In this document: one piece after another, positions 7,775 to 25,214 of the stretch | Position numbering within the stretch: the first letter of the stretch is position 1 | Layout: every line of letters starts with the position of its first letter | Virus record (IMG/VR): IMGVR_UViG_3300022822_000077 | Location: 1 to 25,825 of that record | Source of the DNA: a virus | Strand: one strand, 5' to 3' | DNA length: 25,825 nt | Program-made: the position numbers and the translations under genes | The notes under the pieces: generated by a model | What the model saw: the letters and a program-made list of their open reading frames with translations, nothing else | What the model was told of the DNA's origin: nothing | Databases searched by the model: none

Positions 7775-7779
7775 ACAGT

Positions 7780-8478: not shown

Positions 8479-9884
8479 TGGCAGATGTCACAGAGTTAAT
8501 CACAAGGTTTAGTTTTGAAGGCTCATCTTCACCTTTAAATGATTACAATTTAGCGTTAGGTGACGGAATTGGATTGCTTATCGGTTTTGGTGCTGCCGTT
8601 GCTGGCAGTGCTGCACTGATTGGCACCTTTGCATCTAATACGCTTGAAGCTATACAACCATTAATTGATCTTAGCGCAGCCACAGGCGTTGCCGTTGAGC
8701 GCATACAAGAGCTCAACTTTATAGCCTCAGTTAGCAATTCAAGTATTGAGCAAGTTGCAAGTTCTCTTGAAGGGCTATCAACTAAAATTGGTGAGGCCGG
8801 TCAAAAAGGCAGTGAGGAATTTTCTCGTCTTGGTATAAGTGTTCGAAACTCTAACGGAATAATGAAAAGCACTGATACCGTTTTAACTGAAATTGGTAAT
8901 CGATTTCAAACATTAGGGCTTTCTTTAAATGAGCAAAAATCAATTTCCGAGGCTTTGGGAATTGACGCTTCTTTGCTGACTATGCTTAATCGTTCATCTG
9001 CTGAAATGGGAAAGCTTGCCAATCGTGCGAGAGAGCTTGGCATTTTAAATCAAGAACAAATCGAACAAGCACAAGAATATAATGACTCTTTGACCACTCT
9101 TAGGTTTGGTATGGATGGTTTGCGCCGTTTGATTGCTGTTGGATTGGCCCCGCAAATGAGCAGCTTAGTTGATAGCTTTACAGATATTTTAATAGCGAAC
9201 AAAGATTGGATCATTGGCGGCATCACTGCAACATTTGAGCTTTTAAGTGATTTAACAGATGCCCTTGTTCGTGTTTTCCCTTTGCTCGCCACTGGCGTTG
9301 GCATATTTGTGGCTTTAAAAGTTGCGACATTAGGATGGGCAACGGCTTTAGGTTTAATATTTTCACCGGCTATAATTGCAGCGGGGATAATATCCGCAAT
9401 TATATTTGTAGTCGATGATTTGATTGTTGCTTTTAACGGTGGTCAATCTGCTATACGTGATTTATTTTTAGAGTTTTTTAACTTTGATATTGTGCCGTCA
9501 TTAAATTTTATAGTTGACGGCATCACGGGCGCGTTTGATTCGATTTTAAATGCAGGCAAAGCTTTAATAAATGATCTCATAAACATATTTTCAAATTTAG
9601 ATAATATTGTTCCTAACTGGCTTCTTGATATGTTTAATGACAAGGCAAAGATAGAAATAAATGGTGTTTCGATGCCAGTTGCCAGCACATTTAGCGCAGA
9701 AGATTTGCCCGATAATTCTATGCTTCCTTCTGGAAGTGTTAGCAACTCAAACAGCAGGGTTGAGCAAAATGTTAATATTGATATTCGCTCAACTGATCCT
9801 GAAAGGGCCGGTGTAGTTATTAGAGATACATTGCAAGAACAGATGACAGATGCACAATATCAATCTAGGCGGGGTGGAATGTGA
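8478..9884 (+). CDS. Tape measure protein (short)
   Basis: A 468-residue protein immediately follows the chaperone pair. It has an amphipathic N-terminus, a hydrophobic helix (about 29-53, IGLLIGFGAAVAGSAALIG), and a long helical middle of the 'ATGVAVERIQEL ... LEGLSTKIGEAGQKG' type seen in tape measures. A second hydrophobic block lies near 265-315. The C-terminus VNIDIRSTDPERAGVVIRDTL is the strand-helix motif typical of tape measure ends. It sets tail length and probably threads into the host envelope during ejection. It is short for the family: at the usual ~1.5 angstrom per residue the tail would be about 70 nm. It overlaps both neighbours by a few bases (TAATG and GTGA junctions). Confidence 0.78.
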   Translation: MADVTELITRFSFEGSSSPLNDYNLALGDGIGLLIGFGAAVAGSAALIGTFASNTLEAIQPLIDLSAATGVAVERIQELNFIASVSNSSIEQVASSLEGLSTKIGEAGQKGSEEFSRLGISVRNSNGIMKSTDTVLTEIGNRFQTLGLSLNEQKSISEALGIDASLLTMLNRSSAEMGKLANRARELGILNQEQIEQAQEYNDSLTTLRFGMDGLRRLIAVGLAPQMSSLVDSFTDILIANKDWIIGGITATFELLSDLTDALVRVFPLLATGVGIFVALKVATLGWATALGLIFSPAIIAAGIISAIIFVVDDLIVAFNGGQSAIRDLFLEFFNFDIVPSLNFIVDGITGAFDSILNAGKALINDLINIFSNLDNIVPNWLLDMFNDKAKIEINGVSMPVASTFSAEDLPDNSMLPSGSVSNSNSRVEQNVNIDIRSTDPERAGVVIRDTLQEQMTDAQYQSRRGGM

Positions 9885-10639
9885 TTAAAAAATATTTAGC
9901 TGCTCAGTTTAAAAATGATGAAGCTGAACCTGTTGGCATTGGCGGCTTTAATACGCTTGCTAAAGTTAACGAAAAAGTTTCTAGAACTCGTCAAAGTCCA
10001 ACTGTATACCTTGAAGATGGTGAGCCATTGAACGGTCATATAATTCGCGAGCCTCTTATGATCACCATAGTAGGCGAAGTTTCTGACCTGCACGTTGCAC
10101 CCGTTGAGGCTAATGCAATAATTCGTGAAGCAGAGGCAACACTTGGTCTTGTCACACAATTTTTGCCTGTTAGAACACAATCACAAATAAACAAAGTATC
10201 TGCATTAGCTAATGATGTATCAGGGGCCATTGATAAAGCTGATAGCCTAATTGCATCATCAAAAAAGATTGCTTCTTATTTAGGATTTACGGGTACGCAA
10301 GGCAAAAGCAACATTGAAAAATTTATAGACACAATGGAATCAATACACGACAGCGATGTGTTAATAAATATTGATGCGCCATTTAGAACCTATAAAAATA
10401 TGTCACTTTCACTATTAGATTATGAAAGAAACAACACAACAAACAGCCTGTCATTTACACTTGAATTTATGGAATTAAGGTTTACTGAGTCTATATTTGT
10501 ATTAGATGGAAACCCTGCTAAAAATCCATCAGCGGCAAATAATGGAGCTCAAGGTAGCTTGGTTGAAAAAGGCATTCAGGAAGGTAAAAAAGTTGAGTCT
10601 ATTCTTAGTAAATATATAGGGGGTTTATTTCGTGATTGA
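9881..10639 (+). CDS. Dit-like baseplate / tail protein
   Basis: The gene begins with GTG at 9881, overlapping the tape measure stop, with GGGGTGG just upstream as ribosome site. The 252-residue product has a beta-rich N-terminal half (GGFNTLAKVNEKVSRTRQSPTV, EPLMITIVGEVSDLHV) like the Dit-like domain found next to tape measures in compact contractile phages. A helical middle follows (INKVSALANDVSGAIDKADSLI), then a second strand region (DVLINIDAPFRTYKNMSLSLLDYER, TNSLSFTLEFMELRF). It is probably the tube-to-baseplate adaptor ring. Its end overlaps the plug gene by eight bases. The domain name is moderately sure; the baseplate role follows from order. Confidence 0.58.
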   Translation: MIKKYLAAQFKNDEAEPVGIGGFNTLAKVNEKVSRTRQSPTVYLEDGEPLNGHIIREPLMITIVGEVSDLHVAPVEANAIIREAEATLGLVTQFLPVRTQSQINKVSALANDVSGAIDKADSLIASSKKIASYLGFTGTQGKSNIEKFIDTMESIHDSDVLINIDAPFRTYKNMSLSLLDYERNNTTNSLSFTLEFMELRFTESIFVLDGNPAKNPSAANNGAQGSLVEKGIQEGKKVESILSKYIGGLFRD

Positions 10640-10967
10640 AATAGAAAATATAACCGATGAGCCCATTCAGCAGCACTCAATAATTTTAGAAGATTTTGAA
10701 GTTATATTAACTTTAAGGTTTTATTTTAAAAGTTCTATGTGGGTTATTGATGCAGAATATGACGGCAAGACTGTTAAAGGTTTGAAGCTGTCAGTCGGCG
10801 TACTTCACATGCTAAGCCAAAATCAGCCATTTGATTTTGAAGTTACAGACAACAGTGGATCAGGTTTAGATCCTTTTGAAATTGGTGATTTCTTAGAAGG
10901 TCGATGCAACTTATACATGCTTGAACGAGCTGACATGGTTGGCATCCGCAACGGTATAGAAGTTTAA
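10632..10967 (+). CDS. Baseplate plug protein (Pam3-type)
   Basis: This 111-residue protein starts at GTG 10632 inside the previous gene, with GGGGG (10619-10623) upstream. It has the pattern of the small plug proteins lying before the hub in minimal contractile tails: an acidic N-terminus, a FEVILTLRFYFKSSMWVIDAEYDGK beta hairpin with the conserved Trp, GLKLSVGVLHMLSQ, and a terminal GRCNLYMLERADM strand pair. In such phages the plug closes the central channel above the spike until ejection. The next gene starts directly after its stop. The assignment comes from the motif pattern and the order tape measure, adaptor, plug, hub, spike. Confidence 0.62.
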   Translation: MIEIENITDEPIQQHSIILEDFEVILTLRFYFKSSMWVIDAEYDGKTVKGLKLSVGVLHMLSQNQPFDFEVTDNSGSGLDPFEIGDFLEGRCNLYMLERADMVGIRNGIEV

Positions 10968-11786
10968 ATGTCAACACGCGATTTTATTTTAACTCTAAAT
11001 ATTAGAGGCGGCACAGTAACGGTGATCCCACCTAAGCGAATTAATTTTACAGCAGACAAATCGATAAGTGGCCAGCTAAATAAATTAGAGCTTTCTATTT
11101 ACGGTCTAAGTGAAAAAGATCGGCTTGCTTTAGTTAAAGATGCTGAAGACCAAAAGCGAATACCTATTTCATTACAAGTTGGCTATAAGGGCTTAATTCA
11201 ATCAGTATACAAAGGAACAATATTAACTGGCAGCAATGAAAGGCAAGGGCCGGACATTGTGACTAAAATTAGCGGTCTTGATGGCGGCTTTGATGCAATC
11301 AACAGCTTTACAAATAGAACCGTCAGAGGGGGCAAAACAGCCCTTGATTCTATCTTGCTCGATATGCCCAACACCGGCGAAGGAAAAATAACGGTTAGAC
11401 CTGTATTGACTCGACCTAAAATATTGGTTGGAAACTCATTAAAGCTAATTGATGAAGCTGTCAATGTTGGTGAAACTTGGTACATTGAAAATGAGCAGCT
11501 TTACATAATTTCTGATAATGAGGTTGTAGGCCGGTTTATTCCTGTTGTCTCTGCTAAGTCAGGATTGATTAGTACGCCATCAAGGCAGAATAAGCTCGTC
11601 ACTTTTGAGACAGAAATGAACCCATCAGTTGTGATTGGTGGTCGAGCACAATTATTGAGCACTACTGCACCGCACCTTAATGGGATTTACCGAGTTGAAA
11701 CAATAAGCTACTCAGGTGATAATTACGGCGATTCTTGGAACATGGTTTGCACTGGTCGATTAGTTGGTGAGGTTAAAGTCTTATGA
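10968..11786 (+). CDS. Baseplate hub protein (gp44 / gpD-like)
   Basis: A 272-residue protein between plug and spike. Strand-rich N-terminal region (FILTLNIRGGTVTVIPPKRINFTADKS) then KLELSIYGLSEKDR and IPISLQVGYKGLIQSVYKGTIL follow the hub tube-like domain seen in Mu gp44 / P2 gpD relatives. Around 120-190 lies the small domain with GKTALDSILLDMPNTGEGKITVRP, and GNSLKLIDEAVNVGETWYIENEQLYII is the characteristic second strand-helix unit. The C-terminus has VTFETEMNPSVVIGGRAQL and GIYRVETISYSGDNYGDSWNM, matching the last hub domain. Trimeric hubs match the tube's sixfold to the spike's threefold symmetry. It ends overlapping the spike start by four bases. Confidence 0.7.
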   Translation: MSTRDFILTLNIRGGTVTVIPPKRINFTADKSISGQLNKLELSIYGLSEKDRLALVKDAEDQKRIPISLQVGYKGLIQSVYKGTILTGSNERQGPDIVTKISGLDGGFDAINSFTNRTVRGGKTALDSILLDMPNTGEGKITVRPVLTRPKILVGNSLKLIDEAVNVGETWYIENEQLYIISDNEVVGRFIPVVSAKSGLISTPSRQNKLVTFETEMNPSVVIGGRAQLLSTTAPHLNGIYRVETISYSGDNYGDSWNMVCTGRLVGEVKVL

Positions 11787-12409
11787 TGAGCAAAAAGCAA
11801 TTAATTTCAACAATACTTGGAGTGCTTAAGCCAGAGTTGGCCAACCTTCATACGGTTGCAATCGGTAAAGTTTCAAAAGTTGGTGACAAATTACTAAGTG
11901 TTGATCCTGTTATTCAATGGACGGTTGCGGCCGGAGAGTTTAAAAGTTTAACGACATTTACTGAGGTTCCCCCTATTTTTATGAGAGGCGGGTCAAGCTA
12001 TACAGCGCACCCAATAGCAGTAGGTGATTACTGTTTACTTGTAATTACAGAAAGATGTTATGATCGCTGGTATGCGGGCCAAGATTTTGCGCCACCGGCT
12101 GAGTATAGAATGCATGACTATAGTGATGGATTTGCTTTAGTTGGCATCGGTAATGCGGCCGGCTTGATTGACATTCCAGATGTTATCCAGCAAACCGGAG
12201 ACACTAACCTTGATGGAGATTATACGCATCAAGGAAACATGATACAGACTGGAGATTTAACCGTTAACGGGGATTTGAGAGTTGACGGCGACATTGTATG
12301 CACTGGCAAAATGACAATGGCTGAGGCAAGAATTGGCGGCATAGAATTTGGAACTCATACCCATAGTGGCGTGACAACCGGCCCTAGCAATACAGGAGGC
12401 CCAAACTAA
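11783..12409 (+). CDS. Membrane-piercing spike (gp138-like N-terminal domain)
   Basis: The 208 residues begin with an OB-fold-like domain (VAIGKVSKVGDKLLSVDPVIQW, VPPIFMRGGSSYTAHPIAVGDYCLLVITER) of the gp138 N-terminal family that anchors spikes to the hub. A repetitive beta-helix shaft follows (TGDTNLDGDYTHQGNM, TGDLTVNGDLRVDGDIVCTG). The tip reads FGTHTHSGVTTG, and the His-x-His pair is the known apex motif in gpV/gp138 spikes, where three chains bind one iron ion. The trimer punctures the outer membrane when the sheath contracts. The start ATG overlaps the hub stop, and the gene ends TAATG on the wedge gene. Confidence 0.8.
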   Translation: MMSKKQLISTILGVLKPELANLHTVAIGKVSKVGDKLLSVDPVIQWTVAAGEFKSLTTFTEVPPIFMRGGSSYTAHPIAVGDYCLLVITERCYDRWYAGQDFAPPAEYRMHDYSDGFALVGIGNAAGLIDIPDVIQQTGDTNLDGDYTHQGNMIQTGDLTVNGDLRVDGDIVCTGKMTMAEARIGGIEFGTHTHSGVTTGPSNTGGPN

Positions 12410-12762
12410 TGAGCGTTAGAAGCATCGACAATGAAGGTGATTGGAGATTTGGCAGAGGCAAGGCTGATTATCTAACTGGCTCAAAAGAAATACAGCAAAA
12501 TGTTGTTACTCGTTTGCGGTCATTTACAGATGATTTTTTCTTGGATGTTGAAAACGGTAATCCTTGGATTGAGTTATTTGGCAACCTTGGCACAGATCGG
12601 CGCATTATCCGTCAAGTTGAAAAAAGCATTTTAACAACTAATGGTGTCGTTTCTGTCACTAGCATTGAGCTGATTAGTAAGGATCTAAACAGAGAGGCAA
12701 AAATTGAAGTCTCTTATAATGATGTCTTTAATGAAAATATTTTAGCGGAGGTGAGCATATAA
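12409..12762 (+). CDS. Baseplate wedge protein, gp25-like
   Basis: The 117-residue protein has the family signature: an N-terminal DNEGDWRFGRGKADYLTG block, then EIQQNVVTRLRSFTDDFFLDVENGNPWIELFG, in which the 'QNV-TRL--F--E/D--G-PW' helix-loop is the lysozyme-like gp25 core. It ends with RIIRQVEKSILTTNGVVSVTSIEL and a final strand pair. gp25-like proteins anchor the first sheath ring and start contraction from the baseplate. The gene overlaps spike and J-like genes at TAATG junctions, so all three wedge/spike components are produced in tight coupling. No missing core residues are noticed. Confidence 0.78.
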   Translation: MSVRSIDNEGDWRFGRGKADYLTGSKEIQQNVVTRLRSFTDDFFLDVENGNPWIELFGNLGTDRRIIRQVEKSILTTNGVVSVTSIELISKDLNREAKIEVSYNDVFNENILAEVSI

Positions 12763-13937
12763 TGAAGCCAGAATTTACACGCGAAGGCATAAGTGTACAA
12801 ACCTTCCAAGAGATTTATGATGAGCTTGTTATCGGCTATAAAGCTATTTATGGCAATGACATAACTGTTGATCCAGATTCACCGGACGGCCAAAGGTTAG
12901 CGATTGAGGCTCAGCTTCATCTTGATTTGCAAAGTTTTGCATTAACAATGTATCAACAATTAGACCCAGACTTTGCATTTGGACAGTCACAACAGCGCAT
13001 AATGAAACTTGCAGGCGTTTATATTAGACCAGCCACTAGATCACAGGCTGATGTGACACTTGTTACTGATCGAGCAATTAACCCGCTTGTGGCTGGCTTC
13101 ACTGTTACTGATGATATAGGCCAGTCATGGAAAACATTGAGTGATTTGGTTTTAACATCGGGATCTAATACGATCACTTTGTTTTCTGATTTGTTTGGGG
13201 CCGTTGAAGCAGGGCCAGACACAATAACAGAATTTGCAACCTTTGTTGATGGAGTGGTTAGTGTTACAAATGCATTGGCGGCGACGGTTGGCATAAATGA
13301 GGAAACTGAAGAGGAGGTTCGACTTAGACGAAATCTATCTTTAGAGCTGCCAACTTCATCAGGGGTTGGCCGTTTATATTCTGCATTGGCTGCGGTTAAC
13401 AATGTCACTGGCCTTGTAATATATGAGAATGATACAGCCTCAACCGACTCGAGAAGCATACCGGCGCATTCTCTTTGGGTCGTTGTTGAAGGCGGCTCTA
13501 TTGCAGACATATCTAAAACTATGGTTTTAAATAAAACAGGAGGCAAGCCGTTATTCGGTGATGTAGACGGCACTTACACCGAAACAATTACACGACCAGA
13601 CGGCACCACTTTTAATTATATACATACTATGAGCTTTGACCGGCCCGTTGATGTGCCGCTTTATATTCGATTAAATGTTAAACGTAGAAATGCAGCCAAC
13701 CCGATTGATGATGATTTAATCAAGGAAAAGATAGCCGAAAAGACATTTAATATTGGGGTTAATATTTTGGCCGGTGAAATCTATGCTGAAATATTTAAAG
13801 CAGGCGAAGCTTTTATTCCTTACGATGTTGAAATAAGTGACGACAACTCAACCTTTACTGATGAGCGTATTTTGTCAGGATTAAAAAACAAATTTTCAAT
13901 TGATGTGGCAAATATAACCGTAACCGAGATTACATAA
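12762..13937 (+). CDS. Baseplate J-like wedge protein
   Basis: A 391-residue protein with the J-like (Mu gp47/T4 gp6) pattern. An N-terminal helix region with the family's 'DPDSPDGQRLAIEAQ' signature is followed by the helix DLQSFALTMYQQLDPDFAFGQSQQRIMKLAGVYIRPA. A beta domain comes next (ADVTLVTD to AATVGINEETEEEVRLRRNLSLE), including the conserved 'G--EETDEE-R-R' element. After that come TSSGVGRLYSALAAVNNVTGLVIYEND and the C-terminal IRLNVKRRNAANPIDDDLIKEKIAEK. It dimerises to form the ring that expands upon triggering. The length is normal for the family. Its neighbours gp25-like and DUF2612 complete a minimal wedge. Confidence 0.82.
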   Translation: MKPEFTREGISVQTFQEIYDELVIGYKAIYGNDITVDPDSPDGQRLAIEAQLHLDLQSFALTMYQQLDPDFAFGQSQQRIMKLAGVYIRPATRSQADVTLVTDRAINPLVAGFTVTDDIGQSWKTLSDLVLTSGSNTITLFSDLFGAVEAGPDTITEFATFVDGVVSVTNALAATVGINEETEEEVRLRRNLSLELPTSSGVGRLYSALAAVNNVTGLVIYENDTASTDSRSIPAHSLWVVVEGGSIADISKTMVLNKTGGKPLFGDVDGTYTETITRPDGTTFNYIHTMSFDRPVDVPLYIRLNVKRRNAANPIDDDLIKEKIAEKTFNIGVNILAGEIYAEIFKAGEAFIPYDVEISDDNSTFTDERILSGLKNKFSIDVANITVTEIT

Positions 13938-14654
13938 ATGAGTTTTGTTAGCGAATACCGAAATTTAATAATTAAGCAATATTGGGACAAACCCAAAGCT
14001 CGTGCTGAGATTGAATTAAAAGCGGCTATTTATGAACGTTCATATAATTTATTAAATCGCTTCCCCATTGAAATGGATCTTGATCAAGCTACTGGAGACA
14101 GACTAGACATAATAGGAAATATTGTTGGTATAAAAAGAATTATTCCTGATGTCATTGCTAAGATTGCCTTTGGTTTTGATGGCAATGCAAACGCCAGAGG
14201 GTTCGCAGACAAGTTTGAATTTAAGGGTAGTTCAGCCCCATTTGCTAGAAAGTTTATTTCATCTTTTACACCTTTAACTTTAAATGATCCTGATTATTAT
14301 TTATTTATTAAAGCTAAAATCGGTAAAAATATTGGCTCACCTTACATGAGCTCACTAAATGAAGTTTCAATTCAATCCGCGGTTAATGATTTATTTGACG
14401 GGCAGGCTTACGTTGTTGATAAATATGACATGACTCTTGAATTGTATATAACACCTGCTTATGACTTAGAAAGGTTAAAAGTTATCGTAAAACTTGAACT
14501 ACTGCCAAAGCCGCAAGGTGTGAAGTATTTAGGAATAACTCAGGCTATAATAGGCAACACATTTGGTTTCAGTAGCAATCCAAACTCTAACGGGTTTGCA
14601 AGTAAATTTGACAACAGAGAGGGCGGCATTTTCGCTCGAAAGGTGATTTTATAA
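13938..14654 (+). CDS. DUF2612-type baseplate wedge / fibre-attachment protein
   Basis: The 238-residue protein begins with a helical region (EYRNLIIKQYWDKPKARAEI ... DLDQATGDRLDIIGNIVGIKR). The 'A-G--LD-IG--VG--R' block is typical of DUF2612 and gpI-like wedge tail proteins. A striking internal duplication is visible: FGF-(D/S)-x-N-x-N-x(2)-GFA-x-KF ... FARK occurs at residues 78-105 and again at 209-235. The second copy ends the protein, with a helical/strand core between. It links the J-like wedge to the fibre and is followed by the fibre gene in a one-base overlap. The role is from family knowledge; what the repeated module binds is unknown. Confidence 0.68.
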   Translation: MSFVSEYRNLIIKQYWDKPKARAEIELKAAIYERSYNLLNRFPIEMDLDQATGDRLDIIGNIVGIKRIIPDVIAKIAFGFDGNANARGFADKFEFKGSSAPFARKFISSFTPLTLNDPDYYLFIKAKIGKNIGSPYMSSLNEVSIQSAVNDLFDGQAYVVDKYDMTLELYITPAYDLERLKVIVKLELLPKPQGVKYLGITQAIIGNTFGFSSNPNSNGFASKFDNREGGIFARKVIL

Positions 14655-15580
14655 TGGCTAAGATAACGAGAAAAACAGGAAATGTTGTTCCTTTTGGGTC
14701 TAATGCAACAGGCACTAATAGAACAATATTTGGCCCTGACACACAAAGCGACACCCTTGACGATAATGTTACATCAGAATTTCTTGAAGGTTGGGAAATT
14801 GTGGGACCTAATGAAAACCCAAAGCTTCAAGATTATAATGCTTTAGGTTATACACAAACTTTGTTTATTGCTTACCTTCATCAAATGGGCATGGCTGAGT
14901 GGGATGGTGCTCAAGAATATCAAATACAAAGCCTTGCAGCTCGCCCTAATGGGATTTATTTTTGCAAGACCGCAAATCATACAAGTGTAACTATCCCTGA
15001 ATCAGACGCAACAAATTGGTTTGCACTATCAATAACTGATCCAACAGTTACAGGTTCAACAGTATTTACGCAATCAACAAACAACATAGGTCTTACGGGT
15101 ATTGGCTCCATTGGTTTAGCAGTTGGTGACGTTATAAGGCCCGATGGGTCATCTAACAATGACAAAGATTTTACAGTTGAAGTTATAACGGACGCTAATA
15201 ACATCATTGTCAACCAAGCCCATGCAGGTGGTACAAGTAAAAAATCACTAGTTAATGAAACCGTTAGCACTACTATTACTTTAGTTGCTAGAGCAAAAAA
15301 TGCGCCTCTTGGCTTAGGGCAGGGAGTTGTTGATCTTACCAGTGTTAGATCGCAAGGGACTGTGTATACAAACGACACAGAAAGAACAATTGAAGTCTAT
15401 GTTATTATGAGACTTGGATCAGCCGGTGGTACAGTTGCGGAAATAGATGGAAAGGCATCGGGAAGAATGGAAGATCCTTCTAGTGGTTCTGTCGATTCAT
15501 TTTCTATTGCTGTTCCAAAAGACAGCACTTATGAAATTACGTCAGCTAACACTAAAACAGGTTGGGTAGAAATTCGGTAA
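14654..15580 (+). CDS. Tail fibre / receptor-binding protein
   Basis: The 308-residue protein has an N-terminal attachment region (NVVPFGSNATGTNRTIFG, TQSDTLDDNVTSEFLEGWEIVGPNENPKLQDYNALG) of a type found at the start of many phage fibre proteins. A carbohydrate-binding-like WDGAQEYQIQSLAARPNGIYFCKTANHT segment follows, similar to chitin-binding type 3 tail modules. Then come beta-rich repeats and a C-terminal strand domain (TERTIEVYVIMRLGS to FSIAVPKDSTYEITS) suited to trimer closure and receptor contact. It is quite short for a fibre and probably projects only slightly from the baseplate. The gene is the last structural one before its putative chaperone. Confidence 0.68.
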   Translation: MAKITRKTGNVVPFGSNATGTNRTIFGPDTQSDTLDDNVTSEFLEGWEIVGPNENPKLQDYNALGYTQTLFIAYLHQMGMAEWDGAQEYQIQSLAARPNGIYFCKTANHTSVTIPESDATNWFALSITDPTVTGSTVFTQSTNNIGLTGIGSIGLAVGDVIRPDGSSNNDKDFTVEVITDANNIIVNQAHAGGTSKKSLVNETVSTTITLVARAKNAPLGLGQGVVDLTSVRSQGTVYTNDTERTIEVYVIMRLGSAGGTVAEIDGKASGRMEDPSSGSVDSFSIAVPKDSTYEITSANTKTGWVEIR

Positions 15581-15599
15581 ACAAACAGGATTGATTAAA

Positions 15600-16016
15600 A
15601 TGAATAGATATTACAAAAACGAACAAGGTAAGTTGTTCGAAAATCCAAATTTAAGCAAATACAAAAAAGGCTATTTAACTGAGATTAGCACTAAAGAATA
15701 TAAGGATGAGTTAGCCATTATACTTGCCCCCAAACCGTTAACGCCTAAGCAGATACGCGACGCGGCAATGTTAGAAATGGAATATGACTTCGGTGACGGT
15801 CGCATTATTCAAGTGCGTCAAGGCGACTTTGATTTGATTGCAGGTGGTATTGATGATGGCATTGACTGGTGGAAAATGAAAGATAACAAGGTCTATGATG
15901 TCACTAGCGACGAGTTATACACCGCTTTAAAGTCGGGCAGGGAGCAATTAAAAACGATATGGGTAGCACACAAGGCGCTATTACCTGTAGGAGTTCGAAC
16001 AAAATCAAAAAAATGA
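15600..16016 (+). CDS. Putative tail fibre assembly chaperone
   Basis: The start chosen is ATG 15600, nine bases after AGGA; an in-frame TTG at 15591 is a weaker choice. The 138-residue product starts MNRYYKNEQGKLFENPN, like the N-terminal unit of fibre assembly (tfa) proteins. A proline-linked helix follows (KPLTPKQIRDAAMLEMEYDFGDG), then GRIIQVRQGDFDLIAGGIDDGIDWWKMKDNKVYDVTSDELYTALKSG, similar to the DUF4376-like module found next to fibres, which folds or caps fibre tips. It lies directly downstream of the fibre gene. Either a chaperone or a small tip protein is possible. Confidence 0.52.
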   Translation: MNRYYKNEQGKLFENPNLSKYKKGYLTEISTKEYKDELAIILAPKPLTPKQIRDAAMLEMEYDFGDGRIIQVRQGDFDLIAGGIDDGIDWWKMKDNKVYDVTSDELYTALKSGREQLKTIWVAHKALLPVGVRTKSKK

Positions 16017-16028
16017 GAGGTGTTTAAA

Positions 16029-16538
16029 ATGTATGATTTTATAATGGGCTTTGTAGCAGAAATGAAAACTATGCTTTTATTTATTGTTGTTATTCTTGGC
16101 TTGGCCTTTTTTTGGGTGTTCGGCATCAAAGGTAAGTCATTTAAATTTTGGAAGAATAACGAGGGCGAAGGTTCAGCGGCAAGTGCGGCACTAGGAATTT
16201 TTATTATTATAGGATTTGCTTTTGTGGGTTATTCGCTGTTTTACTCAGCCAACACCAAAGCCAGTAGTGATATGTTTATGGGTGGTACGTTGTTTAATGA
16301 GTTTGGCGTTTATATCGGCATAGATGCAACGCTTAAAACGTCCGCACAGTGCGTTGAAGGCGGGACTGATGACAAACTCACATCTAATATGGGTCTAGTT
16401 GGAAACCTATGGAGGCATCAGAATAAGCGGCATGAGCTAGACGGTAAATACACACATCATTCTTGCGTGTTTGGTAAAGACAGGAATGGCTATGACGGCC
16501 TTGGCCTGAATTACACATATTGGTTTTATCGGAGGTAA
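16029..16538 (+). CDS. Two-TM membrane protein with beta-rich C-terminal domain
   Basis: ATG 16029 is chosen because GAGAGGTG (16015-16022) sits six bases upstream; the GTG at 16020 falls inside that site. The 169-residue protein has two hydrophobic helices (about 13-31 and 53-72), joined by a Lys-rich loop and followed by a soluble part (about 85-169). This part consists of alternating strands: FNEFGVYIGIDATL, SNMGLVGNLW, HELDGKYTHHSCVFG and GYDGLGLNYTYWFYRR. Two Cys (108 and 146) could form a disulfide, suggesting an exported domain. The HHS motif and the aromatic terminal strand recall outer-membrane barrel proteins, but only about four strands exist. The neighbouring endolysin and holin genes suggest lysis or exclusion. 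Function unknown. Confidence 0.6.
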   Translation: MYDFIMGFVAEMKTMLLFIVVILGLAFFWVFGIKGKSFKFWKNNEGEGSAASAALGIFIIIGFAFVGYSLFYSANTKASSDMFMGGTLFNEFGVYIGIDATLKTSAQCVEGGTDDKLTSNMGLVGNLWRHQNKRHELDGKYTHHSCVFGKDRNGYDGLGLNYTYWFYRR

Positions 16539-16544
16539 TTTAGA

Positions 16545-16925
16545 ATGATTAAAACATTAAATTTTAACCCAGAATTAGACACTAAACTCTTATGCACTTG
16601 CGGACATAAATTGTGTGATAAGCGTAGTATCAACCAAGAGCATTTAAATAGAATGCAGCTAGTCCGATTTAATTTAGGTTTTGCGTTATCTGTGACAAGT
16701 GGGGGTCGATGCCCTTATCACGACGAAGAAGCGCACAGAACAACTCCAGCAGACCACCAGAAAGGCAATGGCGGGGATGTAAGAGTAAATGGTAGCACTC
16801 GCGGTAACGTAGTAAGAGCAGGCCAAGAGGCAGGTTGTAACGCTATTGGAGTAGCTAAAACATTTGTACATTTAGGTTTTAGGCCAGAATTGCCGAAGGG
16901 CCATATAACAATGTGGGTTTATTAA
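16545..16925 (+). CDS. Endolysin, M15-family peptidase
   Basis: The 126-residue protein contains the M15 zinc-peptidase pattern. SVTSGGRCPYHDEEAH comes near residues 49-64, then ADHQKGNGGDVRV with zinc ligands H71 and D78, and FVHLGF with the third ligand H109. M15 enzymes of phages cut peptidoglycan peptide stems (L-Ala-D-Glu or D-Ala bonds) to lyse the cell. The N-terminus carries a small Cys motif (CTCGHKLC) that may bind metal or a partner. No signal peptide is visible, so release would need a holin, matching the downstream membrane protein genes. Ribosome site GGAGG lies about nine bases before the ATG. The size equals that of single-domain M15_3-like endolysins. Confidence 0.78.
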   Translation: MIKTLNFNPELDTKLLCTCGHKLCDKRSINQEHLNRMQLVRFNLGFALSVTSGGRCPYHDEEAHRTTPADHQKGNGGDVRVNGSTRGNVVRAGQEAGCNAIGVAKTFVHLGFRPELPKGHITMWVY

Positions 16926-16927
16926 TT

Positions 16928-17518
16928 ATGGACTGGCTAGGCAAGTTAAAAGAGTATGCGCCAAGCATTGCAAGCGCAGTATTAACAGGCGGCACAACTT
17001 TGCCGCAGTTAGCCTTTAAGGCAATAAAAGATGCGACTGGCATTGACATGAAAAGTGAGACAGATCTTAAATCATTTGTTGAGTCTGCCAATCCAGAGCA
17101 ATTGATTGCAATGAAACGCGCCAATCATGATTATGATATTAAGAAAGCTGAGCTAAAGGTTGAACTTAGAAAGGTTGAATCGGAAGAGCTAGAAACGGTC
17201 AACAAAACAATTCGAGTTGAATCAAGTTCTGATGATTGGTTTGTACGTCGATGGAGGCCATTTTATGGTTATTGTGTTGCGGTTTCTTGGGCTATACAGA
17301 TGATAGGCTTTACCGGAGTTCTACTTTATACTGCTGTCAAAAATCCAACATTGCTATCTGCTCTGGTTAGCCAAATGGCTGTGTTGCTAGGATCTTTAAT
17401 AACCCTTTGGGGAATTGCATTAGCTGTTCTTGGTGTAAGCATACACAAGCGAAGCCAAGACAAACAAAAAGCACCTAAAGAAAACGGTGGGTTAATAAAG
17501 TCTTTGTTAAGCAAGTGA
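16928..17518 (+). CDS. Holin of the 3TM / gene-transfer-release type
   Basis: ATG 16928 gives 196 residues beginning MDWLGKLKEYAPSIASAVLTGG. A longer version from GTG 16913 overlaps the endolysin end and is less likely. A charged helical stretch (KKAELKVELRKVESEELETVNKTIRVE) precedes SSDDWFVRRWRPFYGYCVAVSWAIQMIGF. The segments around residues 106-128 and 138-165 form the membrane part, and the 'RPFYGY' element with 'LWGIALAVLGV' is the signature of the 3TM GTA-type holins. These make membrane lesions that release the endolysin. A basic tail ends the protein. Two clear hydrophobic helices are seen, with a third possible near the N-terminus. Confidence 0.72.
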   Translation: MDWLGKLKEYAPSIASAVLTGGTTLPQLAFKAIKDATGIDMKSETDLKSFVESANPEQLIAMKRANHDYDIKKAELKVELRKVESEELETVNKTIRVESSSDDWFVRRWRPFYGYCVAVSWAIQMIGFTGVLLYTAVKNPTLLSALVSQMAVLLGSLITLWGIALAVLGVSIHKRSQDKQKAPKENGGLIKSLLSK

Positions 17519-17524
17519 TGAAAA

Positions 17525-17665
17525 ATGCAGTGGTACACAGTAGAGGTTCTTTCATGGCTGTTGATTATCTTTTCAGTTTTAGCCGGTTTATTTAAATACA
17601 CTATAAAGGCAGTAAGGAATTATGAGCGTAAAAGAAATGATAATGACAGTGGCAACGAGCCCTAA
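17525..17665 (+). CDS. 46-residue membrane protein overlapping the next gene
   Basis: The ATG at 17525 opens a 46-residue frame that ends at 17663-17665, overlapping the downstream holin-like gene (from 17622) by 44 bases in another frame. The protein has a short polar N-terminus (MQWYTVE), a clear hydrophobic helix (VLSWLLIIFSVLAGLF) and a very basic tail (KAVRNYERKRNDNDSG). This is the topology of small lysis accessory proteins such as pinholins, antiholins or spanin-like subunits. The ribosome site (AAGTGATG just upstream) is weak, so translation may be coupled to the preceding stop. Another ATG at 17518 gives an unlikely frame. Function unknown. Confidence 0.48.
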   Translation: MQWYTVEVLSWLLIIFSVLAGLFKYTIKAVRNYERKRNDNDSGNEP

Positions 17666-17924
17666 AACGGCGGCTACAGTGTCAGCGGCCACCACCGGAA
17701 CGGGCGCTACATTTCTTTATTGGATTCCTAATGACATCGGCAAGCTAGCCACATTAGTCGGAATTATTTTATCGATCATGTTGATTAAACTTCATTTTAC
17801 GATGCTCAAAAAGCTGAACATGGAAATGGAAGACATGAGAAAAGAAAGGGAAGAACGAAAAAATAAGGTCGAATCTAGACGGTCAAAAGGTGAGCCATGT
17901 GTTAGGGCTTGCGACGAGACATAA
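17622..17924 (+). CDS. Small holin-like membrane protein
   Basis: A good ribosome site (AAGGA) lies just upstream of the ATG at 17622. The 100-residue product has a weakly hydrophobic N-terminal helix (VATSPKTAATVSAATTGTGATF), a clear membrane helix (GKLATLVGIILSIMLIKLHF) and a long charged coiled tail (MEMEDMRKEREERKNKVESRRS). This is the two-helix plus basic-tail layout of class II holins. It follows the 3TM holin, so one may be holin and the other antiholin, or this may be an envelope spanin without a visible lipobox. The stop at 17922-17924 is followed at once by a hairpin. Confidence 0.58.
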   Translation: MSVKEMIMTVATSPKTAATVSAATTGTGATFLYWIPNDIGKLATLVGIILSIMLIKLHFTMLKKLNMEMEDMRKEREERKNKVESRRSKGEPCVRACDET

Positions 17925-17950
17925 AAAAGCCCAAGAGTTTAATCTTGGGC
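17923..17950 (-). terminator. Intrinsic terminator acting on leftward transcription
   Basis: GCCCAAGA (17929-17936) and TCTTGGGC (17943-17950) form an eight-pair stem with a six-base loop. On the minus strand the stem is followed by six T (the A run at 17923-17928). No T run follows on the plus strand, so termination is mainly for leftward transcripts that pass the first terminator. Confidence 0.7.
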
Positions 17951-18049
17951 AAGCACAATAATAAACGTTAAAAAATATCAAAACTAAAAGCATAATTAAG
18001 TGTTTCGCAGGATTGCTAACACACCTAAATAGTACCACTAATTTTAGAC

Positions 18050-18090
18050 AAAAAAAAGCCTAAACTTAATTAGGCTTCTTTTTCTTTTTA
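18050..18090. terminator. Bidirectional terminator between late and early arms
   Basis: AAGCCTAA (18056-18063) pairs with TTAGGCTT (18070-18077) around a six-base loop. It is preceded by an A run (18050-18057) and followed by CTTTTTCTTTTT, so it can stop transcription from either side at the convergent junction of the late (+) operon and the small-gene (-) operon. Confidence 0.82.
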
Positions 18091-18115: not shown

Positions 18116-18367
18116 TTAAGTTTGCCATCCAACTTCAGTTAATAAAATTCGATCGGTTGACTGAATAGCTTTACTATTTTGCGTGATCTCGCCAGTCACC
18201 TTCCATATATATTCTTGCTTTACATTGATCGCTGCAACCTTAACAGCCGGCGCAGGAACGACAATACAAAAAAGCTCCTGTTCTGGCTTAGCGTCATCGG
18301 CATAAGCAATTGTAAATCTAAACATCAAGCAGATGATGGTAGCGGTTAATAAAAATAACTTTTTCAT
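18116..18367 (-). CDS. Small exported protein with signal peptide (83 aa)
   Basis: The ATG at 18365-18367 is chosen because AGGAG stands about ten bases upstream and the resulting N-terminus MKKLFLLTATIICLMFRFTIAYA is a typical Sec signal peptide, with a probable cut after AYA before DDAKPEQ. A longer frame to 18418 would hide the signal. The mature part (about 60 residues) is mostly beta-prone (FCIVVPAPAVKVAAINV, YIWKVTGEI) with a single Cys (residue 34) and no known domain. It is the last gene of the leftward small-gene operon, just before the bidirectional terminator. Export to the periplasm suggests an envelope function such as exclusion or lysis control, but this is inference. Confidence 0.68.
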   Translation of the reverse strand: MKKLFLLTATIICLMFRFTIAYADDAKPEQELFCIVVPAPAVKVAAINVKQEYIWKVTGEITQNSKAIQSTDRILLTEVGWQT

Positions 18368-18448
18368 TTCATATGATCTCCTAGTTTTTGTGAAGGTACT
18401 TATTAAAACAGAATGCAAATAGTAATCTGTAATGGTTGCATGGTTAAG

Positions 18449-18886
18449 CTATACAGTCCAATCGTCACAGGCACTCATAATAAAAGAAATGTCATCTTTT
18501 GCAAAATACACAACTCCAGCATCGCACTTTATAAGCCATCCATTAGTCTTCATTTTAAAATGTGTGACATTTGAAAAATCTTGGCATATGCCTGGATTGC
18601 TTTTAGTGACTACTCTCCTTGTTTTTTCGTGATTGATTTTTACCCAGTCATTGCTTTTATTTATAACCTCTGGCTTTTCACAGTCCTTTTTAGCGTCATC
18701 GCCCCAAGAATCATTTAAATCAAGTATGTCAGCATCATAATATTTTTTGGCATGAAGCTGCCCTTGTCGATAAACTTCTGCTACAGATGTCACATTATCG
18801 TTCGAAAAGCCTGACACAATATTGCAAACCATTTGATCGATAAACTCATTTATGGCTTCGGCCTTTATTTGTTTGCTTGGTTTCAT
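18449..18886 (-). CDS. Hypothetical early protein (145 aa)
   Basis: The ATG at 18884-18886, six bases from AGGTG and just after the upstream stop, is preferred over the ATG nine codons earlier. The product has a helical N-terminus (KPSKQIKAEAINEFIDQMVCNIVSGF, then SVAEVYRQGQLHAKKYYDADI) and a strand-rich C-terminal half. This half contains several Trp and Cys: WVKINHEKTRRVVTKSNPGICQDFSN, then THFKMKTNGWLIKCDAGVVYFAKDD. There is no signal or membrane helix. It is probably a cytoplasmic two-part protein. The start overlaps neither neighbour but is co-transcribed with the small-gene operon. No family is recognised. Confidence 0.62.
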   Translation of the reverse strand: MKPSKQIKAEAINEFIDQMVCNIVSGFSNDNVTSVAEVYRQGQLHAKKYYDADILDLNDSWGDDAKKDCEKPEVINKSNDWVKINHEKTRRVVTKSNPGICQDFSNVTHFKMKTNGWLIKCDAGVVYFAKDDISFIMSACDDWTV

Positions 18887-18887
18887 A

Positions 18888-19085
18888 TTATTCACCTTTA
18901 GTTGGCTTTTCATCTGGCCATTTGATTACGTGCGGGTGGCCTTGGTTATAAATAATTAAATGATGGTTTTTAAGCAGCCATTCGTTAAAATCTAACTTTT
19001 TAGGTTTGACTGTAGGCTGATGGCTAAATCCAAGCCCGATAAAAATTACCGCAAAAGTTATGGCGATAAAAAGTAAAACTTTCAT
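18888..19085 (-). CDS. Small membrane-anchored protein (65 aa)
   Basis: The gene has AAGGTG seven bases before its ATG and ends two bases before the next gene's start. The product begins MKVLLFIAITFAVIFIGLGF, an uncleaved-looking hydrophobic N-terminus, then has a short soluble part (VKPKKLDFNEWLLKNHHLIIYNQGHPHVIKWPDEKP). This could be a periplasmic segment anchored in the inner membrane. His and Trp residues are frequent. No known motif was seen. Along with its neighbours at 18116 and 19510 it makes three envelope-targeted products in this operon. Confidence 0.65.
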   Translation of the reverse strand: MKVLLFIAITFAVIFIGLGFSHQPTVKPKKLDFNEWLLKNHHLIIYNQGHPHVIKWPDEKPTKGE

Positions 19086-19094
19086 ATATCACCT

Positions 19095-19538
19095 TTAATA
19101 ATGTACGTTTGGGTTAAGTCTGGCTAATTCTTTTTTTGTAAAATCGATTTCTTGCTGATCTTTACGTAAGCGATTTTCTAAAACTTCAATACGTTTTTCA
19201 ACACGTAGCTCATCCTCTGTCTTAGGTTGCACTATTTCATAAATGTTATCACTGCCCCAGTTTGTGCCACCTAGCTTATTTATAGTGTTAAGAGTTTTTA
19301 AATTTCTAGCTATCCCCCCATTAGCTACATGGCAGATAATATCGCAGTGCTTGTCCGGTGGGTTGGGGTAAACTGGCTTAGGTGGCACTAGCTCATAATA
19401 ATCGGGGTCAACCCAGCCATCAGTTGAAATGAATAATTCTTTGCTGCTAGGATCTATATTTTGAATTTTATGTATTCTTATAAGCCTTATTTCGTCGCCT
19501 ATTTTAAAACTATTCTGGTTTTCTGTAGAGTTCGTCAT
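19095..19538 (-). CDS. Hypothetical early protein with C-terminal coiled coil (147 aa)
   Basis: The frame stays open upstream to 19652, but the better start is the ATG at 19536-19538. It has AAGGA ten bases upstream and only a 29-base overlap with the previous gene. The product opens with MTNSTENQNSFKIGDEIRLI, a KOW/SH3-like strand pattern (KIGDEIRLIRIHKIQNID). Then come a proline-rich stretch (PPKPVYPNPPDKH) with two Cys, and finally a heptad helix (EDELRVEKRIEVLENRLRKDQQEIDF). It is probably soluble and oligomeric. The operon context links it to other small host-interaction candidates. No known family is recognised. Confidence 0.6.
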   Translation of the reverse strand: MTNSTENQNSFKIGDEIRLIRIHKIQNIDPSSKELFISTDGWVDPDYYELVPPKPVYPNPPDKHCDIICHVANGGIARNLKTLNTINKLGGTNWGSDNIYEIVQPKTEDELRVEKRIEVLENRLRKDQQEIDFTKKELARLNPNVHY

Positions 19539-19722
19539 AATTAATTTTTCCTTGTCGTCTAATAAATTCAGCTCGTGTTGCAGGAGGCGTCCATTCAGCA
19601 TAGTAATCTTCAGTTGTTGTTTGTTCGCCTTTAAAATATTTAGCGCTGTCAATAGTGTGAATCATTGCAATAACACCCAAACAGGCCAAAACAAATAGTG
19701 TGTAAAAAACTCTTGTTTTCAT
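19510..19722 (-). CDS. Small membrane-anchored protein (70 aa)
   Basis: GGAGTAAGGATT just upstream is a strong ribosome site. The sequence starts MKTRVFYTLFVLACLGVIAM, an N-terminal hydrophobic helix or signal anchor with a Cys at position 14. That Cys follows LVLA-like residues only loosely, so it is not a clear lipobox. A short acidic/aromatic segment (TTTEDYYAEWTPPATRAEF) and a basic end follow. It overlaps the downstream gene by 29 bases in a different frame, suggesting coupled translation. Function unknown. It may be an envelope protein made early to alter the host surface. Confidence 0.62.
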   Translation of the reverse strand: MKTRVFYTLFVLACLGVIAMIHTIDSAKYFKGEQTTTEDYYAEWTPPATRAEFIRRQGKINYDELYRKPE

Positions 19723-19734
19723 AATCCTTACTCC

Positions 19735-19914
19735 TTAATGATCAGATTTTGTTATTCTAAGCAATCGAAACCAATAAGCATCTATTTGCTCTGGACTAGC
19801 CTTAATAGTTTCATAATCGTCGCCGTCTTTATGAAAAAATATTTTATCTTTCGCTTTAGAAAAGCTGTCAAATTTATTTAAATTATAAATTGTATTGTCA
19901 AACTCTATAAACAT
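19735..19914 (-). CDS. 59-residue conserved-looking hypothetical protein
   Basis: ATG at 19912-19914, preceded by AGGGG six bases away; stop TAA at 19735-19737. The product reads MFIEFDNTIYNLNKFDSFSK, then KDKIFFHKDGDDYETIKASPEQIDAYWFRLLR. The compact beta-then-helix pattern and regular composition suggest a real folded protein. It lies in the 200-base gap between two larger genes with tight spacing on both sides, which supports it. It has no membrane segment or Cys. I do not recognise a family, but the strand-turn-strand start (FIEFDNTIYNL) is seen in small phage proteins that make dimeric regulators or inhibitors; this is speculative. Confidence 0.6.
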   Translation of the reverse strand: MFIEFDNTIYNLNKFDSFSKAKDKIFFHKDGDDYETIKASPEQIDAYWFRLLRITKSDH

Positions 19915-19927
19915 AATATTCCCCTAA

Positions 19928-20191
19928 TTAATGCATGTACTCATCATCACGCTCTGGCTCTTGCAACTCTTCATCAAAGCTATCAAAAATCTCTTGCTCA
20001 ATTTTATTTATAGCAGATAAGTTTATTCGATCTTTAATATCTACGTCACCAAAATTTACAGAGTTGATCGTTATTCCTTCGGGAACTGGTGGAGTTTCTA
20101 GATCGCCCGACTCTTCTGGTTGATAATCATAATCAACATTTACATAAAACTCATCATCTTCAAAAAATATAGTAGTAACAAAATTACTCAT
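19928..20191 (-). CDS. Hypothetical acidic early protein (87 aa)
   Basis: The ribosome site AGGAG lies about ten bases before the ATG. The gene overlaps its upstream neighbour by eight bases. The 87 residues are strongly acidic: TTIFFEDDEFYVNVDYDYQPEE at the start, a middle strand pair (GITINSVNFGDVDIKD) and an end rich in Glu/Asp (EIFDSFDEELQEPERDDEYMH). Strong negative charge is common in phage early proteins that mimic DNA or block basic host factors, but no such activity is demonstrated here. The gene ends 13 bases before the next start. No cysteines and no membrane segment are seen. Confidence 0.6.
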   Translation of the reverse strand: MSNFVTTIFFEDDEFYVNVDYDYQPEESGDLETPPVPEGITINSVNFGDVDIKDRINLSAINKIEQEIFDSFDEELQEPERDDEYMH

Positions 20192-20402
20192 TGCGCTCTA
20201 ACTCCTGTTTATAAATTACATCCCAAAGCATAAAAAAGGTTTCTCGGTTGCCTGTGCGCCATGCTTTATTAATTTTTATCATGTGGGCCTCAGTGTCAAA
20301 CTTATTATTGTGCGCTCGCCTATATGGGTTTTCCGACTTATCAGTTTCTATATGAAAATTTAATACTGCCGATGATGAAAACATTGGGTTTAAATAATTC
20401 AT
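20184..20402 (-). CDS. Hypothetical early protein (72 aa)
   Basis: AAGGA seven bases before the ATG gives a clear ribosome site. The 72-residue product is polar and helix-prone with several His and Trp: an N-terminal MNYLNPMFSSSAVLNFHIETD, a basic segment (NPYRRAHNNKFDTEAHMIKINKAWRTGNRE) and an end (FFMLWDVIYKQELERNE). It overlaps the following acidic gene by eight bases. Basic/aromatic content makes nucleic acid binding possible. No motif was recognised, so the function is unassigned. Confidence 0.6.
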   Translation of the reverse strand: MNYLNPMFSSSAVLNFHIETDKSENPYRRAHNNKFDTEAHMIKINKAWRTGNRETFFMLWDVIYKQELERNE

Positions 20403-20416
20403 GGCTTTTTCCTTTT

Positions 20417-20647
20417 TTACAATTTAATTGATTTTATTTCTTTAATTGATGACAAGCAGCTACCGCAAGTAATGCCGCCCATATACACTTCTTTTTCTTC
20501 AAAACCTGCATGACCTTCACCCCATCCATAAACTTGTCCACTACAAAAACACATTGTAGATCCAGCCCCTGAAACGCTTAAACACCACGCGGGTTCATCG
20601 ACTTTTTGACCGTCTTCATCAAATGTTATTTTTACTAAAGTATGCAT
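20417..20647 (-). CDS. Cys-rich small protein, possible zinc binder (76 aa)
   Basis: The 76-residue product starts MHTLVKITFDEDGQKVDEPAW. It carries five Cys arranged as C22, C33-x-C35 and C61-x2-C64, with His46 between (GWGEGHAGF). This pattern could coordinate zinc or an iron-sulfur site. The rest is short strands (EVYMGGITCGSCLSS). AGG lies eight bases before the ATG. It is the first gene after a hairpin terminator, so it depends on readthrough from the promoter at 20902. No family is recognised. Small Cys-rich phage proteins often bind host transcription factors, but this is inference. Confidence 0.6.
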   Translation of the reverse strand: MHTLVKITFDEDGQKVDEPAWCLSVSGAGSTMCFCSGQVYGWGEGHAGFEEKEVYMGGITCGSCLSSIKEIKSIKL

Positions 20648-20658
20648 TTGTTAAACCT

Positions 20659-20675
20659 AAAAGCCCCGAAGGGCT
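20659..20675 (-). terminator. UUCG-capped hairpin, probable partial terminator
   Basis: Read leftward, AGCCC-TTCG-GGGCT (20675 to 20662) makes a five-pair stem capped by a C(UUCG)G tetraloop, followed by TTTT. It lies between the 52-residue gene and the following genes. The U run is short, so termination may be incomplete and allow expression of the downstream genes. Confidence 0.65.
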
Positions 20676-20682
20676 GGTTAAT

Positions 20683-20841
20683 TTATTTTTTATGGTTTGG
20701 GTTTCTTTGAAGGTTAGCTACATGATCAGGATGCTTTTCGTATGCTTTATAAAATTCGTTAGCTTCTGCTCGATCATTGCTTTCAAATAATACCTTGCCA
20801 TTATTGCCTTTGTCGCTGTCATCTGTTACTTGATATTTCAT
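20683..20841 (-). CDS. 52-residue first gene of the small-gene operon
   Basis: ATG at 20839-20841, weak ribosome site (CAGAGA), stop TAA at 20683-20685. The product is MKYQVTDDSDKGNNGKVLFE followed by a helix (SNDRAEANEFYKAYEKHPDH) and a polar end. It is a strand-loop-strand-helix layout like small single-domain phage proteins. It lies about 26 bases after the predicted start site of the promoter at 20874-20902 and just before a hairpin terminator, so its mRNA should be the most abundant of the operon. Function unknown. Its strong promoter and position suggest an early host-directed function. Confidence 0.58.
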   Translation of the reverse strand: MKYQVTDDSDKGNNGKVLFESNDRAEANEFYKAYEKHPDHVANLQRNPNHKK

Positions 20842-20861
20842 TTTTTTTATCTCTGAATTAA

Positions 20862-20890
20862 TTAATGTAAGTTATTATAATATACATTAA
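20862..20890. promoter_or_regulatory. Operator-like inverted repeat over the small-gene promoter
   Basis: TTAATGTA (20862-20869) and its exact reverse complement TACATTAA (20883-20890) are separated by 13 bases, with centres 21 bp apart (two helical turns). The repeat brackets the -10 element (20874-20879) and start region. This is the geometry of a repressor operator; the binding protein is not known. Confidence 0.55.
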
Positions 20891-20902
20891 CCATTAAGTA
20901 AA
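20874..20902 (-). promoter_or_regulatory. Early promoter for the small-gene operon
   Basis: Read leftward, TTTACT (20902-20897) is followed after 17 bases by TATAAT (20879-20874), a perfect -10. Transcription would begin near 20867 and run through genes 20841 to 18116. The same TTTACT-17 form occurs at the two divergent promoters near 24.95 kb. The upstream HNH gene ends ten bases before the -35. Confidence 0.65.
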
Positions 20903-20912: not shown

Positions 20913-21353
20913 TTACAAACCAGAATTTAAAGCTTCGCCGTTTAGCTGATGCCATTTGTTGTGGCAGGCAGGACAAAGCCAATTAACCACCAAAGGAAAA
21001 GCATAATCGCAGTGATGACCTTCAATTCTATCTGTGTTAATAAAACATTTTTCACAACAGGAAGGCTTTATTATTTTCTTATCTCTAACGGCATTGCCTA
21101 CAATTATATTGGCTGATCGCTTAATTGGATTTTGACTAGCCCACTTTTTTTTTGCTTTATTTGCAGCTTTTCGGCCTAAGTCGGTTTTTAAATAAGCTTC
21201 TCTTGACTTAACTCTTTGCGGGTCGTTGTTTCTTTGCTTGTCATATATTGATTGGCACAATTTACAATGCGCTGCAAGCCCGTCATTTGAAGCTGACCTT
21301 AAACCGAAGTCTTGACTAACTTTTTTTAAATTACATTTATTGCAAAGTTTCAT
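20913..21353 (-). CDS. HNH-endonuclease-like zinc protein
   Basis: The 146-residue protein has an N-terminal zinc ribbon (KLCNKCNLKKVSQDFG ... AAHCKLCQS; C4, C7, C30, C33) and a basic helical middle. The C-terminal HNH-type core has two CxxC pairs (C100/C103 and C127/C130) bracketing the catalytic region EGHHCDYAFPLVVNWLC, with H113 and H114, and the last His at 135 (CHNKWH). This is the beta-beta-alpha metal nuclease layout seen in phage HNH proteins. It could be a free-standing homing nuclease or a DNA-processing enzyme. It lies between SSB and the small-gene promoter, in the same direction. The ribosome site (GGGAA) is weak. Confidence 0.72.
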   Translation of the reverse strand: MKLCNKCNLKKVSQDFGLRSASNDGLAAHCKLCQSIYDKQRNNDPQRVKSREAYLKTDLGRKAANKAKKKWASQNPIKRSANIIVGNAVRDKKIIKPSCCEKCFINTDRIEGHHCDYAFPLVVNWLCPACHNKWHQLNGEALNSGL

Positions 21354-25061: not shown

Positions 25062-25214
25062 ATGGCCAAGAAAGCTATCATCGCATTAACTGAATCTCAG
25101 TGGACACACCTCAATGATGTGAAATCTAAAACCTTAAAAAGCTATACGGTACAGATTAGGGATTTACTGCAAAAGGAAATAGACAGCATTAAGCAGGCAA
25201 AAGAAGCGGGGTAA
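25062..25214 (+). CDS. Small ribbon-helix-helix-like regulator candidate (50 aa)
   Basis: ATG 25062 has a strong AAGGA ribosome site six bases upstream, and its stop is three bases before the next start. The 50-residue product has the strand-helix-helix pattern of Arc/MetJ-type proteins: a short N-terminal strand (KKAIIALT), a helix (ESQWTHLNDVKSKT) and a second helix (SYTVQIRDLLQKEIDSI) with a basic/polar end. Such proteins bind palindromic operators as dimers. Its gene lies at the divergent promoters, next to inverted repeats, consistent with autoregulation. The fold is inferred from sequence pattern only, and a short replication accessory protein is also possible. Confidence 0.55.
   Translation: MAKKAIIALTESQWTHLNDVKSKTLKSYTVQIRDLLQKEIDSIKQAKEAG

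Follow-up and report, generated by a model that had tools for sequence, protein, structure and literature searches.

Do the ten small genes that fill positions 18,116 to 20,841 of the viral contig IMGVR_UViG_3300022822_000077 belong together, and what might they do for the phage that carries them? The whole contig, referred to here as the window, is 25.8 kb long (25,825 nucleotides, nt) and probably a fragment, since genes run off both of its ends; it belongs to a marine phage whose tail is contractile and whose structural genes are related to those of Vibrio phage XM1. An earlier note had described the interval as a block of small ORFans, several of them aimed at the envelope. Our analysis favors one regulated, probably early accessory transcription unit whose ends and core are conserved while its cargo changes, a reading that we hold with fair confidence. 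While this type of region is itself known, its definition here as one framed unit is new, as is the lineage.

Three related contigs (L006, L007 and L008) were retrieved with an alignment of a DUF2612-type tail protein, in which they are 73-74% identical, and the gene content of the block was compared by tblastn and phmmer. Listed from the promoter onward, the features of the unit are as follows.

20858..20902, minus strand: block promoter TTTACT-17-TATAAT (-35 at 20902-20897, -10 at 20879-20874), identified by conservation across phages
20865..20887, no strand assigned: 23-bp dyad ATGTAtaTTATaATAActTACAT, candidate operator spanning the -10, with perfect arms in the window, L006 and L008
20683..20841, minus strand: g10, 52 amino acids (aa), ORFan without counterpart in L006, L007 or L008
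20662..20675, minus strand: stable hairpin AGCCC-UUCG-GGGCU in the g10-g9 gap; its U tract is weak
20417..20647, minus strand: g9, 76 aa, Cys-rich, phrog_15583 (2.8e-11, residues 4-76)
20184..20402, minus strand: g8, 72 aa, core gene with homologues in L006, L007 and L008
19928..20191, minus strand: g7, 87 aa, net charge -21, core gene with homologues in L006, L007, L008, L087 and L114
19735..19914, minus strand: g6, 59 aa; its slot in L006/L008 holds an unrelated 62-aa Cys/His protein
19510..19722, minus strand: g5, 70 aa, predicted single-pass membrane protein, core gene with the tail W..P....EF.RRQGKINY[DE]
19095..19538, minus strand: g4, 147 aa, phrog_13152, core gene with homologues in L006, L008, RIO-1, HP1 and 1M3-16
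18888..19085, minus strand: g3, 65 aa, predicted N-terminal membrane anchor, no relative found
18449..18886, minus strand: g2, 145 aa, ORFan, no relative found
18116..18367, minus strand: g1, 83 aa, predicted signal peptide and short periplasmic product, no relative found
18056..18077, plus strand: terminator for the (late) transcript that converges from the plus strand, assigned from its sequence
17920..18033, minus strand: conserved 3' element of ~114 nt (hairpin 18000-18022, A/T-rich linker, intrinsic terminator 17950-17929 with U6)
17883-18038, minus strand: 51-aa open reading frame (ORF) with a GTG start across the 3' element, no counterpart listed there in L006/L008

That this interval holds ten genes for products of 52 to 147 residues, as the earlier note had it, is borne out by ORF density, coverage and codon usage. 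The ten ATG-initiated ORFs, all on the minus strand and separated by gaps of 1-81 nt apart from two overlaps, cover 94% of the interval, compared with a mean of 1.0 ORFs of at least 52 aa (largest 5) and a mean coverage of 7% (largest 33%) in 500 dinucleotide-preserving shuffles. For all ten genes the annotated frame exceeded the other five frames when codon usage was trained on the large genes of the window, and a purine-rich ribosome-binding site precedes most of the starts. The start of g1 is the ATG at 18367 and not the upstream TTG, which corrects the earlier assignment. No Pfam or NCBIfam family reached its cut-off for any of the ten products, PADLOC gave no defence-related match in the block, and PHROGs matched two of the ten, g4 and g9, both to families of 'unknown function'. 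The ten products joined into one tblastn query gave no match among annotated phages, nor did g4 and g9 as single-protein queries in viral contigs, where RecT as a single-protein query retrieved two relatives, one of them L006.

The block had been described as lying between terminators and a promoter, and both are present at these places. The promoter occupies the 71-nt gap upstream of g10. A promoter scan by itself yielded 28 hits where 28.6 would be expected by chance, and the element is credible because it is conserved across phages, not because it was found by the scan. In L006 and L008 the 45-nt promoter segment is located upstream of g8 and matches the consensus without mismatch outside the variable positions. 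Identity to the relatives amounts to 46/51 and 42/45 nt (z ~15 over shuffles); control intergenic pairs reached z of -0.4 to 0.3, and synonymous sites in the same operon are near saturation between the window and L006/L008 (proportion of synonymous differences, pS, 0.67-0.84). The dyad over the -10 is probably the operator of a dimeric repressor. No second copy with up to 3 mismatches was found in the window, and a scan of all viral contigs with the dyad core returned the known contigs and three further matches, which lie in other surroundings without core genes and were rejected as chance. Between the promoter and g8 the window carries g10, the UUCG hairpin and g9, while L006 and L008 carry nothing; by its sequence the hairpin is a possible attenuator.

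At the opposite end, the gene ahead of the 3' element is g1 in the window and g4 in L006/L008, where the plus-strand neighbours differ as well. It is identical at 64/79 nt (z 9.7-10.7), and an intrinsic terminator with a U run is present on the minus strand of the window, L006 and L008. It folds better than its shuffles do, with z of -2.8, -3.2 and -2.4 in the three sequences. One clean compensatory change of a stem pair, from C-G to G-C, lends weak backing to an RNA structure; some pairs are broken in one sequence, and the best single-sequence fold of the L006 element differs. A covariance model run against 98 sources matched only the window, L006, L007 and L008, all of them either input sequences of the model or a near-copy, and Rfam returned only sub-threshold matches to VrrA and MicX (E 0.13-0.14). 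Since L006 and L008 list no counterpart of the 51-aa ORF, conservation of the element was not taken as coding. A conserved stem-loop followed by a Rho-independent terminator with a U tail is a feature of Hfq-dependent phage small RNAs (sRNAs), and we hypothesize that the element may be a phage sRNA from the 3' untranslated region (3'UTR); alternatively, it could merely be a conserved terminator region. A further-reaching proposal, in which the block would be an exchangeable frame made of a repressor-controlled promoter and a 3'UTR sRNA freed from the tail of the message and acting in trans on host or late-phage messages, with changing anti-host genes in between, seems doubtful to us.

Within these ends, g8, g7, g5 and g4 are retained at the same place and in unchanged order in L006, L007 and L008, all of which lack g10, g9, g6, g3, g2 and g1. 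The label of small ORFans therefore suits most genes of the block and fails for the four that form this conserved core. The core genes are under purifying selection, with ratios of nonsynonymous to synonymous substitution (dN/dS) between L006 and L008 of 0.13 for g7 and 0.22 for g8. In L008 there are two copies of g5, the first frameshifted and the second joined to g4, and an extra 58-aa gene. Upstream of the unit, L006 encodes RecT/YqaJ and L008 encodes Sak4 and a different SSB, and this module change just upstream of the promoter fits inheritance of the unit as a block between exchangeable neighbours. By analogy, a promoter and 3' hairpin that are kept while the inner genes change are what one usually sees where a phage has room for disposable host-interaction genes. 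The replacement of RecT/YqaJ by Sak4 and another SSB right next to the conserved promoter is in its own right a clean recombination-module swap in one phage lineage. A genome scan with the DUF2612 alignment matched one metagenome-assembled genome; among 369 genomes of its class neither a g4 relative nor the 3' element was found and two weak g7 matches appeared, empty results that mean little because the set included no positive control.

We propose that RNA polymerase would start at the sigma-70-like promoter that closely follows the recombination genes, and that a dimeric repressor binding the 23-bp dyad over the -10 would turn this promoter down. The ten genes would be read as one message ending in the conserved hairpin and intrinsic terminator. 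Their cargo would be small host-interaction proteins, with g1, g3 and g5 at the envelope and the rest in the cytoplasm, and may turn over because a given host makes such proteins useful or useless. The core g8-g7-g5-g4 more likely serves a general infection step near early DNA metabolism, since in other phages members of the g7 family are again found next to recombination or SSB genes. Early timing is suggested by the sigma-70-like promoter together with the position downstream of recT, yqaJ and ssb. A promoter of its own, terminators and gene turnover are as expected for accessory early genes, which supports that part of the earlier note, and the anti-defence, takeover or exclusion roles it had considered for the products are plausible by analogy.

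The properties assigned to individual products all hold: one signal peptide (g1, ending in AYA before DDA, by reading), two membrane anchors (g3 and g5, with N-terminal hydrophobic stretches of KD19 2.65 and 2.14), one acidic protein (g7, isoelectric point 4.1, acidic residues 25/87) and one Cys-rich protein (g9, Cys 5/76). A destination at the envelope is thus predicted, by hydropathy only, for g1, g3 and g5 and not for the other seven. The strong conservation of the g5 tail RRQGKINY was not counted as proof of a protein motif, since it is explained in part by the DNA, where the ribosome-binding site of g4 and its start are located.

The statement that none of the products has a recognised domain stands for Pfam and NCBIfam families at cut-off, and has to be amended for g4 and g9, which have PHROG relatives, and for g7. 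Structure prediction followed by fold search, as the earlier note had proposed, was informative for g7. Its AlphaFold model (predicted local distance difference test score, pLDDT, 78.5) matched PDB entry 3PES, Pseudomonas phage YuA gp49, as the sole PDB entry listed (Z 6.9, 3.5 Å root mean square deviation, 70/87 residues); this is moderate evidence, as a Z under 8 may reflect a common arrangement, that g7 shares the gp49 fold over most of its chain. The model also matched many uncharacterised phage proteins, and 3PES was absent from the list of a profile search of PDB sequences with g7 (aligned identity 20%). Members of the g7 family adjoin recT in L087 as well as SSB-like and integrase genes in the bacterial contig L114, and the YuA relative is located at the end of the early region, four genes past an annotated anti-restriction gene. 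L087 also contains a 166-aa ORF (11735-12235) of ~26-residue repeats (KYSKEEHQKAxPTADDMRWWNxKNEE). The g4 product belongs to phrog_13152 (2.4e-6; 3.6e-6 for L006 and 6.8e-11 for L008, most of the chain covered), a family common to g4, Pseudoalteromonas phages RIO-1 and HP1 and Nitrincola phage 1M3-16. Nothing was concluded from its low-confidence model (pLDDT 68.5, predicted template modelling score 0.32), for which the best fold match was the uncharacterised homologue of RIO-1 and PDB matches stayed at Z < 3; a sub-threshold match to the helix-turn-helix (HTH) family PF20310 (E 0.096) was taken as noise. The g9 product is 36% identical to a protein of Aeromonas phage 59.1 with Cys35, Cys61 and Cys64 in common, and possibly binds metal.

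Several points weigh against a single early accessory unit. That the genes are expressed early, share one message and are repressed is what we infer from sequence, and the unit might be divided in two by the UUCG hairpin downstream of g10. With no product of known function, the cargo claim is an argument from analogy. L007 barely differs from L008, and within the unit L006 is in turn closely related to L008, so that the comparison with the window involves in effect one or two lineages.

Among the other explanations, a strict anti-defence island of the acr-aca type survives best, with a strong immediate-early promoter, several immunity inhibitors and a repressor acting on an inverted repeat. 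The conserved promoter with its dyad points in this direction, as do the small, diverse and mostly ORFan products, the acidic g7 and the turnover of cargo. Archaeal viruses are reported to have predicted anti-defence genes behind conserved early promoters (PMC11065993), and Aca proteins are reported to act as repressors of acr operons (PMC9410881). The empty searches with Pfam, NCBIfam and PADLOC, libraries that are not dedicated to Acr proteins, speak against such an island, as do the lack of any HTH family at cut-off among the ten products and the fold of g7, which is that of an uncharacterised phage protein and not of a known DNA mimic. On balance we regard it as rather unlikely.

Much less credit is due to a leftover region in which the leftward operon simply ends with small ORFs that are degenerate or near-neutral and under no particular selection: the many ORFans absent from relatives and the decayed g5 copy in L008 would agree with it, while ten open frames with coding-like codon usage, a core under purifying selection and a promoter and 3' element conserved far beyond neutral expectation make it very improbable. 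A lysis role for the membrane products and the g5-g4 pair, spanin-like or holin-related, is likewise unlikely and the weakest proposal, since the lysozyme and transmembrane proteins at the same distal place of the leftward operon in XM1-like phages and the overlap of the short membrane protein g5 with the start of g4 (29 nt) are opposed by endopeptidase and holin-like genes already present on the plus strand directly ahead of the block, by the missing Cys that could form a lipobox in g5 of L008 and by the lack of signal or anchor in g4.

In the minus-strand order of the window, genes for a 320-aa protein, RecT, a YqaJ-like exonuclease, an 83-aa ORF, SSB and a phrog_2340 endonuclease-like protein precede the block. 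The early genes show no close relation to those of Vibrio XM1-like phages (RecT 24%), and the structural genes share 40-50% identity with those of Vibrio phages XM1, VBM1, 1.052.A and 1.154.O. Comparison of 1-17924 of the window with L002-L005 shows an XM1-like structural module, with ~50% identity of the sheath to Vibrio phages. In the window the lysis genes are located on the plus strand 3' of the tail genes, whereas those of XM1-like phages close the leftward operon. Two neighbouring genes are noted here.

20913-21353, minus strand: endonuclease-like protein, phrog_2340, whose Cys-rich N-terminal part weakly matches a Lar-like restriction-alleviation PHROG (8.5e-5)
25062-25214, plus strand (17716-17868 in L008): 50-aa protein near the start of the rightward operon, ribbon-helix-helix-like by eye

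The latter was considered as a ribbon-helix-helix repressor that might bind the dyad and was set aside, as the likeness was by eye and without Pfam support.

The conserved promoter/operator and 3' element offer sequence handles for finding such units without knowing their genes. Screening is narrowed to one operon with a likely on-switch, and the core g8-g7-g5-g4 can be tested separately from the cargo. If the 3' element were indeed a small RNA, the operon would serve this marine phage as an RNA regulator as well as an early accessory unit.

Lambdoid left-operon and nin-type regions carry variable accessory genes. Like the block, they consist of packed small early genes beside recombination genes, with turnover between conserved ends; no sequence relation to them was found, and the lineage of the block has its own promoter/operator and 3' RNA element. 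The acr-aca operons and the early anti-defence genes behind conserved promoters share with the block a dedicated conserved promoter with an inverted repeat and small, fast-changing cargo, and differ in that neither an Acr relative nor an HTH Aca gene was detected in the block (Pfam/NCBIfam). YuA gp49 (3PES), deposited as uncharacterised, resembles g7 in predicted fold and in its place among early small genes at ~20% identity. Finally, phage lambda encodes the PreS sRNA between ea10 and ral, in a stretch of early small genes (PMC12197685), and the 3' element, if it is a small RNA, would resemble it as a phage RNA in the same kind of setting.

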